Assembly (NCBI GenBank): GCA_903944085.1
Contig: CAJAQO010000134.1
Location: forward strand, 1 to 50,778
Direction of reading: 5' to 3'
Length of the DNA: 50,778 bases
Origin: an uncultured Verrucomicrobia subdivision 3 bacterium
GTDB taxonomy: Bacteria > Verrucomicrobiota > Verrucomicrobiia > Limisphaerales > UBA11358
This document shows, piece after piece, positions 27,686-40,179 of this stretch. Position numbers and translations under genes: made by a program. The notes below the pieces were generated by a model, which made no database searches, was not told where the DNA came from, and saw only the letters and a list, made by a program, of their open reading frames with translations. The stretch's first letter is position 1. Each line of letters opens with the position of its first letter.

Positions 27686-27770
27686 GTAGGAGCCGAGGTG
27701 ACGAGGCTCAAATTAATTTGGATTTTGGGTTTCGGAATTTTAGCTGGAGCCGCCTCACGTCGGCTGCTAC
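27686..27770. repeat. Long inverted repeat element, copy 1
   Basis: Two 24-base arms (27686-27709 and 27747-27770) pair with 20 of 24 matches around a 37-base AT-rich loop. The arm sequence GTAGcAGCCGAcGTgAgG is clearly the same family as the element at 33245-33340. It sits between two convergent genes. Confidence 0.8.
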
Positions 27771-28980: not shown

Positions 28981-30078
28981 ATGGCTAAAATTGACGCGTT
29001 TTTCAATCTGATGTTTGAGCAGCGGGCTTCCGACCTGCACATGGCGTCGGGCAATCCGCCGATGATGCGCATCAACGGCGAGCTGCAGCGCGTGGATTAT
29101 CCGCCGCTGGAAAGCGATTCGCTCAAGGCCATGCTCTACGAAATCGCGCCGGATTACAAAATCAAACAGTTTGAAGAAACCGGCGACGTGGACTTCGGCT
29201 ACGAAATTCCGAACATCTCGCGCTTCCGCGTGAATTTTTTCAACCAGAAAAACGGCGTCAGCGCGGTGTTCCGGCAGATTCCCAGCCGCGTGCTGTCGTT
29301 CGAGGATTTTGACAAACTGGAAGCGCCGCTGCCGGTGGTTTTCAAAAAATTTGCGATGCTGCATCGCGGCCTCGTCGTCGTGACCGGGCCGACCGGCTCC
29401 GGCAAATCCACCACGCTCGCGGCCATCGTGGATTATTGCAACCGCAACCGCAAAGACCACATCATCACGATTGAAGACCCGATTGAATTTGTCCACGAAA
29501 GCAAAAACTGCCTCGTGAACCATCGCGAGGTCGGCGTGCATACCAAATCATTTGCGTCGGCGCTGCGCGGCGCGTTGCGCGAAGATCCGGACATCATTCT
29601 CGTCGGTGAAATGCGCGATTTGGAAACCATCGAGCTGGCGATCACGGCGGCGGCCACGGGCCACTTGGTTTTCGGCACGCTGCACACGCAGAGCGCGGCC
29701 AAGACGGTGGACCGCATCATTGACGTTTTTCCGGCGGATCAGCAGAACAAAATCCGCCAGACGCTGTCCGAAGCGTTGAAAGGAATTGTGGCGCAGACAC
29801 TGTTCAAGCGGTCGGACAAAAAAGGCCGCGTCGCCGCGTTTGAAGTTTTGGTGTTCAACACCGCCGTCGCCAACCTGGTGCGCGAGGGCAAGACGCACCA
29901 AATTCAAGGCATGATCCAGGTCGGCAAAAAATTCGGCAACCAGCAGTTGGACGATCACATCATGGAGCATGTCCGCATGAAGCGCATCACGCCGGAGGAC
30001 GCCTATGACAAGGCGCTCGACAAGAAAAAATTCCGCCCGCTGCTGGCGCATCCGCCGGATGACGACGAGGCGATGTAA
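28981..30078 (+). CDS. pilT: Type IV pilus retraction ATPase PilT
   Basis: 365 aa, start MAKIDAFFNLMFEQRASDLH, the usual PilT opening. Motifs: Walker A VTGPTGSGKSTT near 136, Asp box ITIEDPIEFVH, Walker B DIILVGEMRDLETI, His box LVFGTLHTQSA. The C-terminus lacks a zinc-finger motif, as expected for retraction rather than assembly ATPases. It forms a hexamer at the inner-membrane base of the pilus and drives pilin removal. It is followed 108 bases later by pilU. No other pilus genes are in the window. Confidence 0.92.
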   Translation: MAKIDAFFNLMFEQRASDLHMASGNPPMMRINGELQRVDYPPLESDSLKAMLYEIAPDYKIKQFEETGDVDFGYEIPNISRFRVNFFNQKNGVSAVFRQIPSRVLSFEDFDKLEAPLPVVFKKFAMLHRGLVVVTGPTGSGKSTTLAAIVDYCNRNRKDHIITIEDPIEFVHESKNCLVNHREVGVHTKSFASALRGALREDPDIILVGEMRDLETIELAITAAATGHLVFGTLHTQSAAKTVDRIIDVFPADQQNKIRQTLSEALKGIVAQTLFKRSDKKGRVAAFEVLVFNTAVANLVREGKTHQIQGMIQVGKKFGNQQLDDHIMEHVRMKRITPEDAYDKALDKKKFRPLLAHPPDDDEAM

Positions 30079-30086
30079 CTGTAATT

Positions 30087-30176
30087 ATGAAGTTTGAATT
30101 ATGAATGATGAATTGAACATTTGGGCTCGCGTGCGCCGAAGTTCCTTCACTTCATCATTCATCATTCATACTTCAT
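30087..30176. repeat. Inverted repeat between pilT and pilU
   Basis: Two 29-base AT-rich arms (30087-30115 and 30148-30176) pair at 26 of 29 positions, built of ATGAATGATGAA-type units. The loop is 32 bases and GC-rich. It leaves only ten bases before the pilU start, so it may affect pilU translation. Confidence 0.85.
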
Positions 30177-30186
30177 CCTTTTAACC

Positions 30187-31386
30187 ATGCGCCGGCCTGA
30201 ACTGGACCAAATTTTGACGACGATGCTGGCTTCGCAGCCGGAAGTTTCGGACCTGCTGTTCACCAGCGACCGGCCGCCGCAGGTCGAGGCTTACGGCGAA
30301 CTCAAGCCGGTGGCGCTCGATCCGCCGATTGAAAAACTTACGCCCTTTCAAATCGAAGCCATCGCGATGAACATCATCGGCGATAATCTCTGGCAGATCG
30401 AGGATTTGCTGCGGCACGGCTCGTGCGATGCCTCGTATGCGTTGAGCGACCAGGCGCGTTTTCGCGTGAATGTGTTTTCGCAGCGCGGCAATTATTCCAT
30501 CGTCTGCCGCCAGCTCAACACCAAGATCCCGACGCTGGACCAGTTAAAGTTGCCGGAAACACTGAAGCTGATTCCGCGGGAAAAAACCGGCTTGGTGCTC
30601 GTCACGGGCGCGACCGGCTCCGGCAAGTCCACCACGCTCGCGGCGATTTTGAGCGAGATCAACCGGGACAAGGCCGTTCACATCGTCACGCTCGAAGACC
30701 CGGTGGAATATCTGCACGTGCATGACCGGGCCACGTTCAACCAGCGCGAGATGGGAATTGATTTTGATTCGTATGCCAACGGCTTGCGCGCCGCGCTGCG
30801 CCAGGCACCGAAGGTAATTCTCGTCGGCGAAATGCGCGACCAGGAAACCGTGAAAATCGCCTTGAGCGCGGCAGAGACCGGCCATCTCGTGTTGAGCACG
30901 CTGCACACGATCAATGCCGGCGAAACCGTCAACCGCATCCTCGGCATGTTTGAACCGGAGGAGCAGGAGCAGATTCGCATCCGGCTCTCGGATTCGCTGC
31001 GGTGGGTGGTCAGCCAGCGGCTGTGCCCGCGCATCAGCGGCGGCCGGCACGCGCTGATCGAAATCATGGGTTCCAATTTACGCACGCAGGAAGCCATCCG
31101 GCTGGGCGAAAGCGAGGGCAAGACGTTTTACGAAATCATCGAGGCGAGCTACACTTTCGGCTGGCGGCATTTTGACCATGCCTGCTTGGAATCCTACGAG
31201 CACGGGCTGATCACCGAGGATAACGCCCTGCTCTACTGCACCAAGCGCAGCGTGGTGTCGCGCGGGATTGACAACCAGAAAAAAGCGCGCGGCGAAGTCA
31301 CCACCGACCTCAGCGCGCTGCGGATGCGCTCCGGCGGCCAGAGCGGCGGCAGCGGCGAAAAACCGCCCACTTTAAAATTCAAATGA
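30187..31386 (+). CDS. pilU: PilT-like retraction ATPase, PilU paralogue
   Basis: 399 aa from the ATG at 30187; an earlier frame would translate the upstream inverted repeat. Motifs: Walker A VTGATGSGKSTT near 140, VTLEDPVEYLH, Walker B VILVGEMRDQETV, His box LVLSTLHTINA. The second-gene position after pilT and a longer C-terminal tail (SALRMRSGGQSGGSGEKP) fit a PilU-type accessory retraction ATPase. It should work with PilT on pilus retraction. Its stop overlaps the start of the next gene (ATGA at 31383-31386). Confidence 0.82.
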   Translation: MRRPELDQILTTMLASQPEVSDLLFTSDRPPQVEAYGELKPVALDPPIEKLTPFQIEAIAMNIIGDNLWQIEDLLRHGSCDASYALSDQARFRVNVFSQRGNYSIVCRQLNTKIPTLDQLKLPETLKLIPREKTGLVLVTGATGSGKSTTLAAILSEINRDKAVHIVTLEDPVEYLHVHDRATFNQREMGIDFDSYANGLRAALRQAPKVILVGEMRDQETVKIALSAAETGHLVLSTLHTINAGETVNRILGMFEPEEQEQIRIRLSDSLRWVVSQRLCPRISGGRHALIEIMGSNLRTQEAIRLGESEGKTFYEIIEASYTFGWRHFDHACLESYEHGLITEDNALLYCTKRSVVSRGIDNQKKARGEVTTDLSALRMRSGGQSGGSGEKPPTLKFK

Positions 31387-33244: not shown

Positions 33245-33340
33245 CCCCTGAACCGTAGCCGCCGACGTAAGGAGGCTCTAACTTGATTTGACTAATTTCA
33301 GATGGAGCCTCCTTACGTCGGCTGCTACAAGGTTCAGGGG
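33245..33340. repeat. Long inverted repeat element, copy 2
   Basis: The central arms (33255-33278 and 33305-33328) match at 23 of 24 positions; an outer CCCCTGAACC/GGTTCAGGGG pair (33245-33254, 33331-33340) extends the stem after a two-base bulge. The loop is about 26 bases and AT-rich. The arm sequence is shared with 27686-27770. It is followed at 33345-33361 by a small perfect hairpin, GGCGCTG-ACA-CAGCGCC. No gene is seen from 33156 to 33497. Confidence 0.88.
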
Positions 33341-33497: not shown

Positions 33498-35540
33498 TTA
33501 CGATTTGTAAGGACCAAGAAATTTATCGCCGTCGAAATGAATCATGTGGTCAGGCGCATCAGCAATCCAAACTTCGGTTTCCCAAGCAATATCAGGGGCA
33601 TTTTTACGGAAAGCATTTCGATTTAGAAATGCAGTGATGAAAACGATGTCCGCCGTGCAATTCTTGGCCAGCCGCTTCAACTCCAGAAGCCTCATGGGGG
33701 AAATGGGGTTGGCACTGTGAACCGCCTCAATTAAAAACAGCCAGTTCTTTTTTTCTGAATAGGCAACGACATCCGGCAACTCGCCATGCTCCAGTTCAAA
33801 GAATTTCAGCGATTTGAGTTTTTGTTCGTCGCGGACAAGGAATTTTTTAGCGGTATCGCCGACATACAAAACTTCCGCACCAAAACCGTAGCGAGGCAGG
33901 AACTGTTCGATGATGGCTTTTTGCAGCAGATTATGTTCGCCGGGGCTGAATTGAAGCGTCTGGCCGTCCGGTAATTTGATTGGAACATGGTTGAGTTGCC
34001 GCGCAGCCTCAAGACGTTCAGCGAGTGTCGGTCTGTCAGCCATGAACTCCTCGATTGTTTCCAGCCAATCTGTTTGTCCGAACCGGCAGATGAGTTCGAC
34101 ATATTCGGGCGACAAAGAATAACCGCGCGTAGGATCATTGCGGGCAGCATTGGGTTTGTTCGCACTAGCAATGATGATTCCCGCCACAACCGGCAGCTTC
34201 AAATCTTTCCGCCGGATGTCATCGTAAGAACCTTTTGAAATGTTTTCCTGAAAATGTTCATTGATGTAGGATATGATGTCGCGTGACTTGAGTGTATTTT
34301 TGCCTTCGCGAATTCGCGCTTTAGACCATTCAGAACTGCGCTTCACATCGGCTACCGCGAGAAATGACATGGCCATCTTTTCCAGTTCGCGTGGTCTCAA
34401 GCTCTCCAACGGAATTCCCAGCTTGGACAAAATCAGCAATGACTCATTGAAAAGCTTCACGAGCTTGGCCGGCTTGTCAGGATTGATGACAAAGGTTGGT
34501 ATTTTCATTTCGGTTGATTCCTTAAATTCGAGCGGCAGGGCAAACTGGTCGGGCAAATTCCGATAAAGGATCTCTCCAGAAGAGAGCCGTTTGGTTGTGG
34601 CAAGATACTTTTTTATTGAGCCAGCTAGATGCCACGCCAGCAATGGCGCAACGGCATTGCCAACTTGATTGAACTGGCTGGTCTCTCCGCCACAAAATTG
34701 AAACCAGTCGGGAAACGATTGCAACCTGGCAGCTTCGTGAATCAGCAAACGTCTGCGGCGACCATCCGGAAGGCGGATGCGGTGCATATCGCCAGTCGCA
34801 CCTGCAAGGTTTCGGCAAGTCAGCGTGCGGGCAGGAAGTTCAGGATGAAGATCGCGTGGCCGCGTGCAAAAGGAAGCGCGCTCATATTTTGCAACGTATT
34901 CATCCATGCTCGGCGTTAGAAATCTGGATTCTGGCGGTGCTTGAAACATCAATTCACCAAGCGCTTCGCCTGCGGTAAGCCGATTAGGTTCTTCAGCAAA
35001 AAACTGAAACTCGCCGCGATGCCCGACGACAATCACACGCTCGCGATTTTGCGGCACGCCATAATTCACGGCATTGACCAGACGCACTTCGATGACGTAA
35101 TTCAGCGCCTTCAACGCTTCGAGTATCTGCTCAAAATACCAGCGGTTGCTATAAAGGACGCCCCGGACATTTTCAAAAACCCAAATCTCCGGCTGAACTT
35201 GCTTCACGGCGGAAATGAAAATTGGAAAACCATCTCGCGAATCTTTCAATCCCATTTGATGACCGCCAACGCTGAACGGTTGGCATGGCGGGCCACCGAT
35301 GATTACGTCCGCCTTTGGAAATTGGGTTTCAGTCGTTAGCATGACTTGTTTGCATTCTCCTTTGAGATTTCGCCGGTAAGTTTCACAAGCGTCAGCGTCT
35401 TGCTCGAAGCCAAGTGTTTCAAATCCCTGTGCCTCGAAGCCCAGCGCCAACCCGCCGCAGCCTGCAAATAAATCCAGCACGCGGGTTTTTCCTTCTGGGT
35501 TTGGCCGGAGCACCGAATTGATTCTTTCAACGTAGTTCAT
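33498..35540 (-). CDS. Fused C5-cytosine DNA methyltransferase and BsuBI/PstI-type restriction endonuclease
   Basis: 680 aa. Residues 1 to about 330 are a complete C5-cytosine methyltransferase: DLFAGCGGLALGF (motif I, 23-35), GGPPCQPFS with catalytic Cys86 (IV), ENVRG (VI), PQNRERV (VIII) and QVGNAVAPLLAW (X). From residue 345 (MKIPTFVINPDKP) to the end is a full-length BsuBI/PstI-family endonuclease of about 336 aa, with VLYVGDTAKKFLV, LPDVVAYSEKKNWLFLIEAV and the C-terminal IAWETEVWIADAPDHMIHF. The join has no stop codon. ATG at 34508 has an AAGGA ten bases upstream, so the endonuclease might also be made separately. PstI-type enzymes normally pair with N6-adenine methylases, making this pairing unusual. 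By eye it is more AT-rich than its neighbours, suggesting transfer. Confidence 0.9.
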   Translation of the reverse strand: MNYVERINSVLRPNPEGKTRVLDLFAGCGGLALGFEAQGFETLGFEQDADACETYRRNLKGECKQVMLTTETQFPKADVIIGGPPCQPFSVGGHQMGLKDSRDGFPIFISAVKQVQPEIWVFENVRGVLYSNRWYFEQILEALKALNYVIEVRLVNAVNYGVPQNRERVIVVGHRGEFQFFAEEPNRLTAGEALGELMFQAPPESRFLTPSMDEYVAKYERASFCTRPRDLHPELPARTLTCRNLAGATGDMHRIRLPDGRRRRLLIHEAARLQSFPDWFQFCGGETSQFNQVGNAVAPLLAWHLAGSIKKYLATTKRLSSGEILYRNLPDQFALPLEFKESTEMKIPTFVINPDKPAKLVKLFNESLLILSKLGIPLESLRPRELEKMAMSFLAVADVKRSSEWSKARIREGKNTLKSRDIISYINEHFQENISKGSYDDIRRKDLKLPVVAGIIIASANKPNAARNDPTRGYSLSPEYVELICRFGQTDWLETIEEFMADRPTLAERLEAARQLNHVPIKLPDGQTLQFSPGEHNLLQKAIIEQFLPRYGFGAEVLYVGDTAKKFLVRDEQKLKSLKFFELEHGELPDVVAYSEKKNWLFLIEAVHSANPISPMRLLELKRLAKNCTADIVFITAFLNRNAFRKNAPDIAWETEVWIADAPDHMIHFDGDKFLGPYKS

Positions 35541-35552
35541 TCGCCGTTCAAT

Positions 35553-36767
<1,215 letters not shown>

Positions 36768-36778
36768 GGTTTCATTTT

Positions 36779-36804
36779 CACGCAAAGACGCAAAGACGCA
36801 AAGG
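36779..36804. repeat. CGCAAAGA short tandem repeat
   Basis: Three copies of ACGCAAAG in tandem in the 5' leader of trpB. On the minus strand it reads CTTTGCGTC, a short repeat I recall from many environmental genomes. No clear role. Confidence 0.7.
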
Positions 36805-38871: not shown

Positions 38872-40179
38872 TTAAACGTCCTGGATTTTGCCGTGCAGAT
38901 AACTTTCAAACGAACTCAAGTCGAGCAGCCCGTGGCCGGAAAGGTTGAACAGCAGCACTTTTTTCGTCCCGGCTTCGCGGCATTTGATGGCCTCGTTCAC
39001 CACGGCGGCGATGGCGTGGGATGATTCCGGCGCAGGCACCAGCCCTTCGTTCCGGGCGAACAGCACCGCCGCCTCGAACACTTTGGTCTGGTGAATCGCT
39101 TCAGCTTCGATGAGCCCGAGTTTGAGTGCGTGACTGACCATCGGCGACATGCCGTGGTAGCGCAGTCCGCCGGCGTGAATGCTCGGCGGAATGAAATCAT
39201 GGCCGAGCGTATACATTTTCATCAGCGGCGTGGTCTCCGCTGTGTCGCCGAAATCGTAGCGGAGTTCGCCTTGCGTCAGCGACGGACACGCGGACGGCTC
39301 GACACCGACGATGCGATATTTTTTTCCGTCGCGGATTTTTCCCCGGATGAACGGAAAAGTGAGTCCGGCAAAATTGCTGCCGCCGCCGCAACAACCGAAA
39401 ATCACGTCCGGTTCCTCGCCGGCGATTTCCATCTGCTTGATGGTTTCCTCGCCGATAACGGTCTGATGATGACAAACGTGATTCAGCACGCTGCCGAGGG
39501 AATATTTCGTGTTCGGCGTTTTCACCGTGTCCTCGATGGCTTCGCTAATCGCGATGCCCAAGCTGCCGGGATGATGCGGGTCCTGCGCCTGCAATTTGCG
39601 GCCGTATTCCGTCTGGTCGCTCGGACTCGCGTGAACCGTCGCGCCCCAAGTGTGCATGAGCATGCGGCGATACGGCTTTTGATCGTAGCTCACTTTGACC
39701 ATGTAAACATTGCACTCCAGTCCGAACAAACTGCACGCAAACGCCAGCGACGAACCCCACTGGCCCGCGCCGGTTTCCGTGGCGAGCCGTTTGGTGCCGG
39801 CGATTTTGTTGTAATACGCCTGCGGCACCGAAGTGTTGACTTTGTGGCTGCCGGCGGGACTGACGCCTTCGTATTTGTAATAAATATGCGCCGGCGTGTT
39901 CAGCGCTTTTTCCAATCGCACCGCACGCAGCAACGGCGTGGGCCGCCACAACGCGTAGATGTCGCGCACCGGTTCGGGAATCTCGAGGTATTTCTCGGCG
40001 CTAATTTCCTGCTCGATGAGGTTGCGTGGAAAAATCGCCTCCAAGGCTTCCGGTGGCATCGGCTCTTTGGTGCCGGGATGCAGCGGCGGCGGCAGCGGCT
40101 CGGGGAAATCGGCGTTGAGGTTATACCAAGCCGACGGAATATCCGCCTGCGTCAGATCGAAGCGCGTTTTCTGGCTCAT
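38872..40179 (-). CDS. trpB2: TrpB2-type tryptophan synthase beta-like PLP enzyme
   Basis: 435 aa, longer than classical TrpB, with the TrpB2 opening [23 protein letters not shown] lysine in [34 protein letters not shown], and [17 protein letters not shown]. The end [15 protein letters not shown] is also typical. TrpB2 proteins can make tryptophan from indole and serine and often act without TrpA, or on phosphoserine in some archaea; the physiological role here is unknown. Its presence beside a classical trpB in one genome region suggests a different function, such as indole salvage. Confidence 0.94.

Follow-up and report, generated by a model that had tools for sequence, protein, structure and literature searches.

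How is a host protected before cutting begins if its methylase and its restriction endonuclease are made as one chain? The question is raised by a gene in a 50,778-nucleotide stretch of DNA (the window) from an uncultured Verrucomicrobia subdivision 3 bacterium. The partner methylases of the BsuBI and PstI endonucleases are separate N6-adenine (N6A) methylases. The original prediction placed the motifs of a C5-cytosine methylase, with Cys86, and a full BsuBI/PstI-type endonuclease in one open frame of the window, and took this combination to be unusual and perhaps undescribed.

The fused gene (33498..35540, minus strand) is a single open reading frame that starts with ATG and encodes 680 amino acids. 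Pfam assigns PF00145, the C5-cytosine methyltransferase (M) domain, to residues 20–311 (34608..35483, minus strand; E 3.8e-60). The endonuclease (R) half consists of the BsuBI/PstI N-terminal HTH domain, PF17728 (BsuBI_PstI_RE_N), at residues 362–508 (34017..34457, minus strand; E 5.7e-26, 91.5 bits against a curated cut-off of 27) and the endonuclease domain, PF06616 (BsuBI_PstI_RE), at residues 519–671 (33528..33986, minus strand; E 4.1e-63, 211.9 bits against a cut-off of 27). No N6A methylase family is matched by Pfam in the 680-residue chain. C5-cytosine methyltransferases share a SAM motif, the PCQ cysteine, ENV, QxRxR, RLQxFPD and GNAV. The M half has this full set as FAGCGG (from residue 25), GPPCQP (from 83, with Cys86), ENVRG (from 123), QNRER (from 164), RLQSFPD (from 272) and GNAV (from 294), and among solved structures it matches the HaeIII and HhaI methylases. 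SdaI aligns with the R half (E 7e-49), which keeps the acidic residues of the family's PD…E segment, PD (Asp590) and EAVHS (Glu605, followed by His608). A fold model of R alone (15 rows) has a pLDDT of 86.8, and SdaI is its sole strong fold match in the PDB (Z 24.2, 300 aligned, rmsd 16.0); given the large rmsd, the domain orientation is not trusted. The fold of the full-length chain (4 rows, pLDDT 57.6) is too poor for use. Read from the sequence, both domains are complete in one frame, as predicted: coordinates, cysteine, Pfam assignments and motifs agree, and no stop codon separates the halves. By joining both kinds of domain in a single chain, the protein has the architecture of Type IIC; its methylase is a PF00145 C5 enzyme and not the gamma-class domain of Type IIG.

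Eight intact C5 fusions were found. Five are in the phylum of the window (L001, the window itself, L027, L028, L029 and L062) and three outside it: L004 (Chloroflexota, Dehalococcoidia), L005 (Cyanobacteriota, Roseofilum halophilum) and L006 (Pseudomonadota, Gammaproteobacteria). The frame of L027 (690 codons), from another genome of the phylum, is likewise uninterrupted and 77% identical to the fusion of the window. The same families occur as adjacent two-gene M and R pairs at 11 loci (L003, L007, L008, L030, L057, L058, L059, L065, L068, L069 and L072). L059, counted as a pair, has a truncated R frame: relative to the query, roughly the first 96 residues of R are missing. R is more distant in L068, L069 and L072, which are contigs from a viral collection. 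L009, interrupted by stops or frameshifts, was counted neither as a fusion nor as a pair; L063 has a fusion-like frame of 653 amino acids, but the end of its methylase is in a different frame, and it was left out of the fusion count. The pairing of a C5 methylase with a PstI-type endonuclease in one chain is real, and it is not unique to the window.

In a sample of the phylum, R is matched at 1e-20 in 35 of 387 genomes. Thirty of the 36 match rows were cut out as loci (the other six rows come from five genomes); these hold four C5 fusions, the window included, one C5 pair and 25 loci without such a C5 methylase in the roughly 1.5 kb of flank covered. Matches at 1e-100, with already-known genomes counted, number 4/339 in the phylum of L005, 1/343 in that of L003, 1/297 in that of L007, 2/251 in that of L004 and 5/240 in the class of L027. 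Among viral contigs, 7 of 79 loci were domain-checked and comprise three unfused C5 pairs and four loci with M only; in a second set, all 45 loci were checked and this C5 methylase is present in none. No C5 fusion was seen in either group of checked viral loci, and no plasmid or phage record has one place covering 80% of the query.

Two deflationary readings of the locus can be weighed against these relatives. One is that an assembly error, or the chance loss of a stop codon, joined two separate genes in the genome of the window alone. The host assembly is indeed a draft (335 contigs, 4.67% contamination); it has one full-length copy of the gene and, at another place, a weak match (30%) to the M half. 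Of the 49 genomes in the genus, moreover, the window's alone has the full gene, for which reason we think it was probably acquired. Seven other intact fusions in other genomes speak against an error, the 77% identical one directly so. The placement of the contig is further supported by the upstream gene (35553..36785, minus strand), trpB-like by eye and separated from the start of the fused gene by 12 nt; of the 12 other genomes of the genus that were searched, 9 have copies of it with 85–96% identity. An artefact is thus very improbable. The other reading, a solitary regulatory methylase with an inactive nuclease half, draws on residue 608, three positions after Glu605. Most rows of the rest of the family (75 of 80) have Thr at this position and SdaI has Lys, whereas in C5-linked rows it is His in 16 of 21 (Thr in three, Tyr in one, Asp in one); gapped rows, one C5-linked and seven other, were set aside. 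At least some of the other rows are N6A-linked (four fusions by Pfam, and the four plasmid regions looked at, where annotation gives Eco57I-type methylase neighbours). The 16 histidines include all eight fusions, the damaged L009 and L063 and also unfused loci, and His608 looks like a trait of the subfamily and not like decay. No C5-linked row with letters at these positions (21 in all) has lost Asp590 or Glu605, and between L001 and L027 R is as conserved as M (80% and 77% identity). We regard an inactive nuclease as improbable.

Other features of the neighbourhood were noted. A second, longer gene that is trpB-like by eye lies near the first (38872–40179), and two genes at 28981–31386 resemble PilT/PilU-type ATPases by eye. 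Downstream of the fused gene is an inverted repeat with 29-nt arms that are 90% complementary (33255..33328), which may represent either a terminator or a small repeat element; its arm core recurs once, with two mismatches, at 27747.

The fused state did not arise once and simply persist. In a concatenated M and R tree of 16 rows (eight fusions and eight pairs, L059 among them; L063, L009, the three viral-collection pairs and the four methylase-only loci were left out), a single clade of fusions is rejected (AU p = 5.3e-5) and the fusions form one group in 0 of 200 bootstrap trees. L004, L005 and L006 group with the unfused L003 and L059, and on the far side of that branch are the window-phylum fusions; this implies at least two fusions, or one with later splits. 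A clade of the five window-phylum fusions is absent from the best tree, yet is not rejected (AU p = 0.11). Trees of 24 and 20 rows took in L063 and the viral-collection pairs, and only the M tree also the methylase-only loci; L009 was again left out. By the 16-row tree, these genes have passed between the fused and the separate state more than once.

The unfused locus L057, from a genome of L005's phylum, suggests how such a change comes about. Its M gene ends in TTT TAA TAA, and the ATG of R follows two codons on in the same frame. By eye, this start aligns with an internal in-frame ATG of the window's fusion, Met345 (34506..34508, minus strand), which has a Shine–Dalgarno-like (SD) AAGGA 10 nt on its 5′ side (34519..34523, minus strand). 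From this alignment, the linker (about residues 312–361; 34458..34607, minus strand) consists of the C-terminal tail of M, the former junction and the start of R. An adjacent M-then-R gene pair would have become one gene through loss of the intervening stop, leaving the R start codon inside the linker. In the five window-phylum fusions the internal Met comes 51, 51, 53, 53 and 52 codons after GNAV, and the changes in length have kept the frame.

Whether the internal start still functions is a separate matter. AAGGA lies 7–10 nt upstream of the junction ATG in all five window-phylum fusions, in three of them as AAGGAG. When strong SD 5-mers at a spacing of 4–12 were scored, the junction ATG has one in 5/5 genes; among the remaining in-frame ATGs of these genes, counted from codon 11, only 2 of 59 do, and the L027 M start accounts for one of them. 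The enrichment has a Fisher p of 2.8e-6 with relatedness ignored; the five genes are related and are not five independent cases. Recoding with the protein fixed and each gene's own codons yields an SD 5-mer in 40–50% of recodings for each gene, and the joint probability of about 0.022, a product of five values, is modest. In the other group of fusions (L004, L005 and L006), such a site is present in two of three, with none at the linker ATG of L005. As a side observation, an SD 5-mer accompanies an in-frame ATG near the junction of the N6A fusions L014 and L031, and a TTG near that of L015; L037 has none there.

The use of SD sequences by the hosts also bears on this point. In a sample of the window's host, SD 5-mers precede the first ATG in only 4 of 148 long frames, hardly more often than they precede internal ATGs (20 of 1430); for first ATGs in four other hosts of the phylum the counts are 8/65, 4/25, 13/48 and 8/25. 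With so few first ATGs carrying one, AAGGA may not serve as a ribosome site in the window's host. The M starts of the five fusions (those of L062 and L029 are uncertain) have an SD 5-mer in one case, L027; the window's has none. Outside the ATG and AAGGA, the linker has diverged to 36–58% identity among the window-phylum fusions. A synonymous distance was returned in only 2 of 18 region comparisons; the missing 16 were taken as saturated, and dN/dS was not used for this reason.

Two accounts of the linker can be set beside each other. The full-length chain may be the sole product, the internal ATG and AAGGA being relics from before the fusion that no longer serve a function; we give this a little less than an even chance. 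The scarcity of SD sequences at first ATGs in the host sample, the fusion L005 without one at its linker ATG, and the frequency with which protein-fixed recoding recreates the 5-mer all suit relics, whereas retention of both elements in 5/5 phylum fusions, despite the divergence of the surrounding linker and synonymous sites taken as saturated, sits less easily with them. The alternative is that one frame gives two R-M proteins, a full-length host-protecting M-R chain and a free nuclease from the retained start, as a recurrent design in which at least two C5 groups came independently to a fused state with the start. We consider this possible but doubtful. The second product would be a free R protein of 336 residues started at Met345, and could restore nuclease output. 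The SD signal is enriched at the junction, yet it may be inherited and not used in the window's host.

With the relatives and the junction taken together, we think the gene is probably a compressed single-gene Type II R-M system, Type IIC by architecture, derived from an adjacent M-R pair with the internal R start kept. What can be read directly from the DNA is two complete domains, the anatomy of the junction, a recurrent change of state and a linker held in frame across five relatives; both activities, methylation and cutting, are predicted for the fused chain. The N-terminal C5 methylase would mark the target, probably palindromic, and the C-terminal BsuBI/PstI-type nuclease would cut unmarked copies. 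The gene may yield two products, this chain and the free R protein started at Met345. C5 methylases act as monomers, and PstI/SdaI-type nucleases work as dimers. From this difference we infer that the chain would methylate before it cuts: as a monomer it would modify the host DNA, and it would cleave only after its R halves had dimerised. The same assembly logic, in which the monomer methylates and the dimer cuts, is proposed for Type IIC in the available text of a 2025 review (PMC12707154).

The target of BsuBI/PstI systems proper is CTGCAG (or CCTGCAGG), which for the fused protein is an assumption. Palindromes were counted in samples of 72 to 465 kb from seven fusion hosts and two relatives (the host of L006 was left out). 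In the window's host (465 kb) CTGCAG occurs 48 times against 138 expected, with 12 other palindromes at lower ratios; many palindromes are depleted there, GTAC (0 against 390) and GTCGAC (3 against 70) for example. The CTGCAG ratios in the six other fusion hosts range from 0 to 0.86 and are not consistently low. Site avoidance was rejected as a guide to the target: no listed palindrome is low in all seven fusion hosts, so no assignment is made. The window itself has no GTAC against 43 expected from shuffles, and a same-genus genome has 95 against 160; this suggests strong selection against GTAC, perhaps through another restriction system. From the Roseofilum sample (L205–L224, 317 kb) at least ten 6-bp palindromes are absent altogether, CTGCAG included.

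Among known systems, the two-gene Type IIP enzymes BsuBI, PstI and SdaI/SbfI share both R family domains with the window's protein, SdaI being its best match in sequence and fold. The window differs in having a C5 methylase, fused in the same frame, and His at residue 608, where the family otherwise has mostly Thr. An Eco57I-type N6A methylase is fused to a BsuBI/PstI endonuclease in all four long frames tested by Pfam (L014, L015, L031 and L037). These have the M-then-R order and the same R family, with another methylase class and longer frames (840–954 amino acids, against 680). The window's R half also matches the C-terminal part of the PADLOC model PDLC03359 and of phrog_1639 (840 and 838 aa), which are probably N6A-methylase fusion models, the N6A start being deduced from model length. 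Single-chain Type IIC/IIG enzymes such as Eco57I, MmeI and BtgZI resemble the window's protein in joining both activities, predicted here, in one protein. According to the accessible part of PMC4081073, they mostly have a gamma-class methylase, place the nuclease first and cut off-site; BtgZI, alpha-class with M first, is the lone such case described there among single-chain R-M enzymes.

The Eco29kI methylase is a C5 enzyme. As far as the available text of PMC3039593 goes, RM.Eco29kI is an engineered fusion of this Type IIP endonuclease and methylase that works as a single chain; neither activity is lost, R activity being three times lower and phage protection 100-fold less. Natural counterparts were suggested. 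It is laboratory-made, with R first and a GIY-YIG nuclease, whereas the window's protein is natural, with M first and a BsuBI/PstI nuclease. C-REase fusions such as CR.NsoJ138I, as presented in the accessible portion of PMC3850674, are natural fusions of R-M parts, as here, with other partners. A second protein from an internal start, as proposed here, is known for McrB, where the short form withdraws McrC from the active complex (PMC12707154, available text).

No report of a natural C5-methylase–endonuclease fusion was found in the literature among the matches listed, and the available parts of PMC5608340 and PMC6158711 hold nothing on a C5-methylase/PstI-type pairing. The claim of an undescribed combination stands to that extent and has to be narrowed, since N6A-methylase fusions to the same R family exist. 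The joining of ordinary two-gene Type II systems had been proposed and engineered before (PMC3039593, in the part available) and was judged rare: Type IIC systems that resemble two-gene systems make up only 0.9% in the accessible text of PMC4176335. Here, a natural series with a C5 methylase is seen, unfused, in frame but split, and fused, in which the state has changed more than once. The series puts single-chain host protection before cutting within direct testing, and its carriers are candidate enzymes whose target could be read from 5mC maps. If the two-product design were true, every message that bears the nuclease would also encode the methylase.
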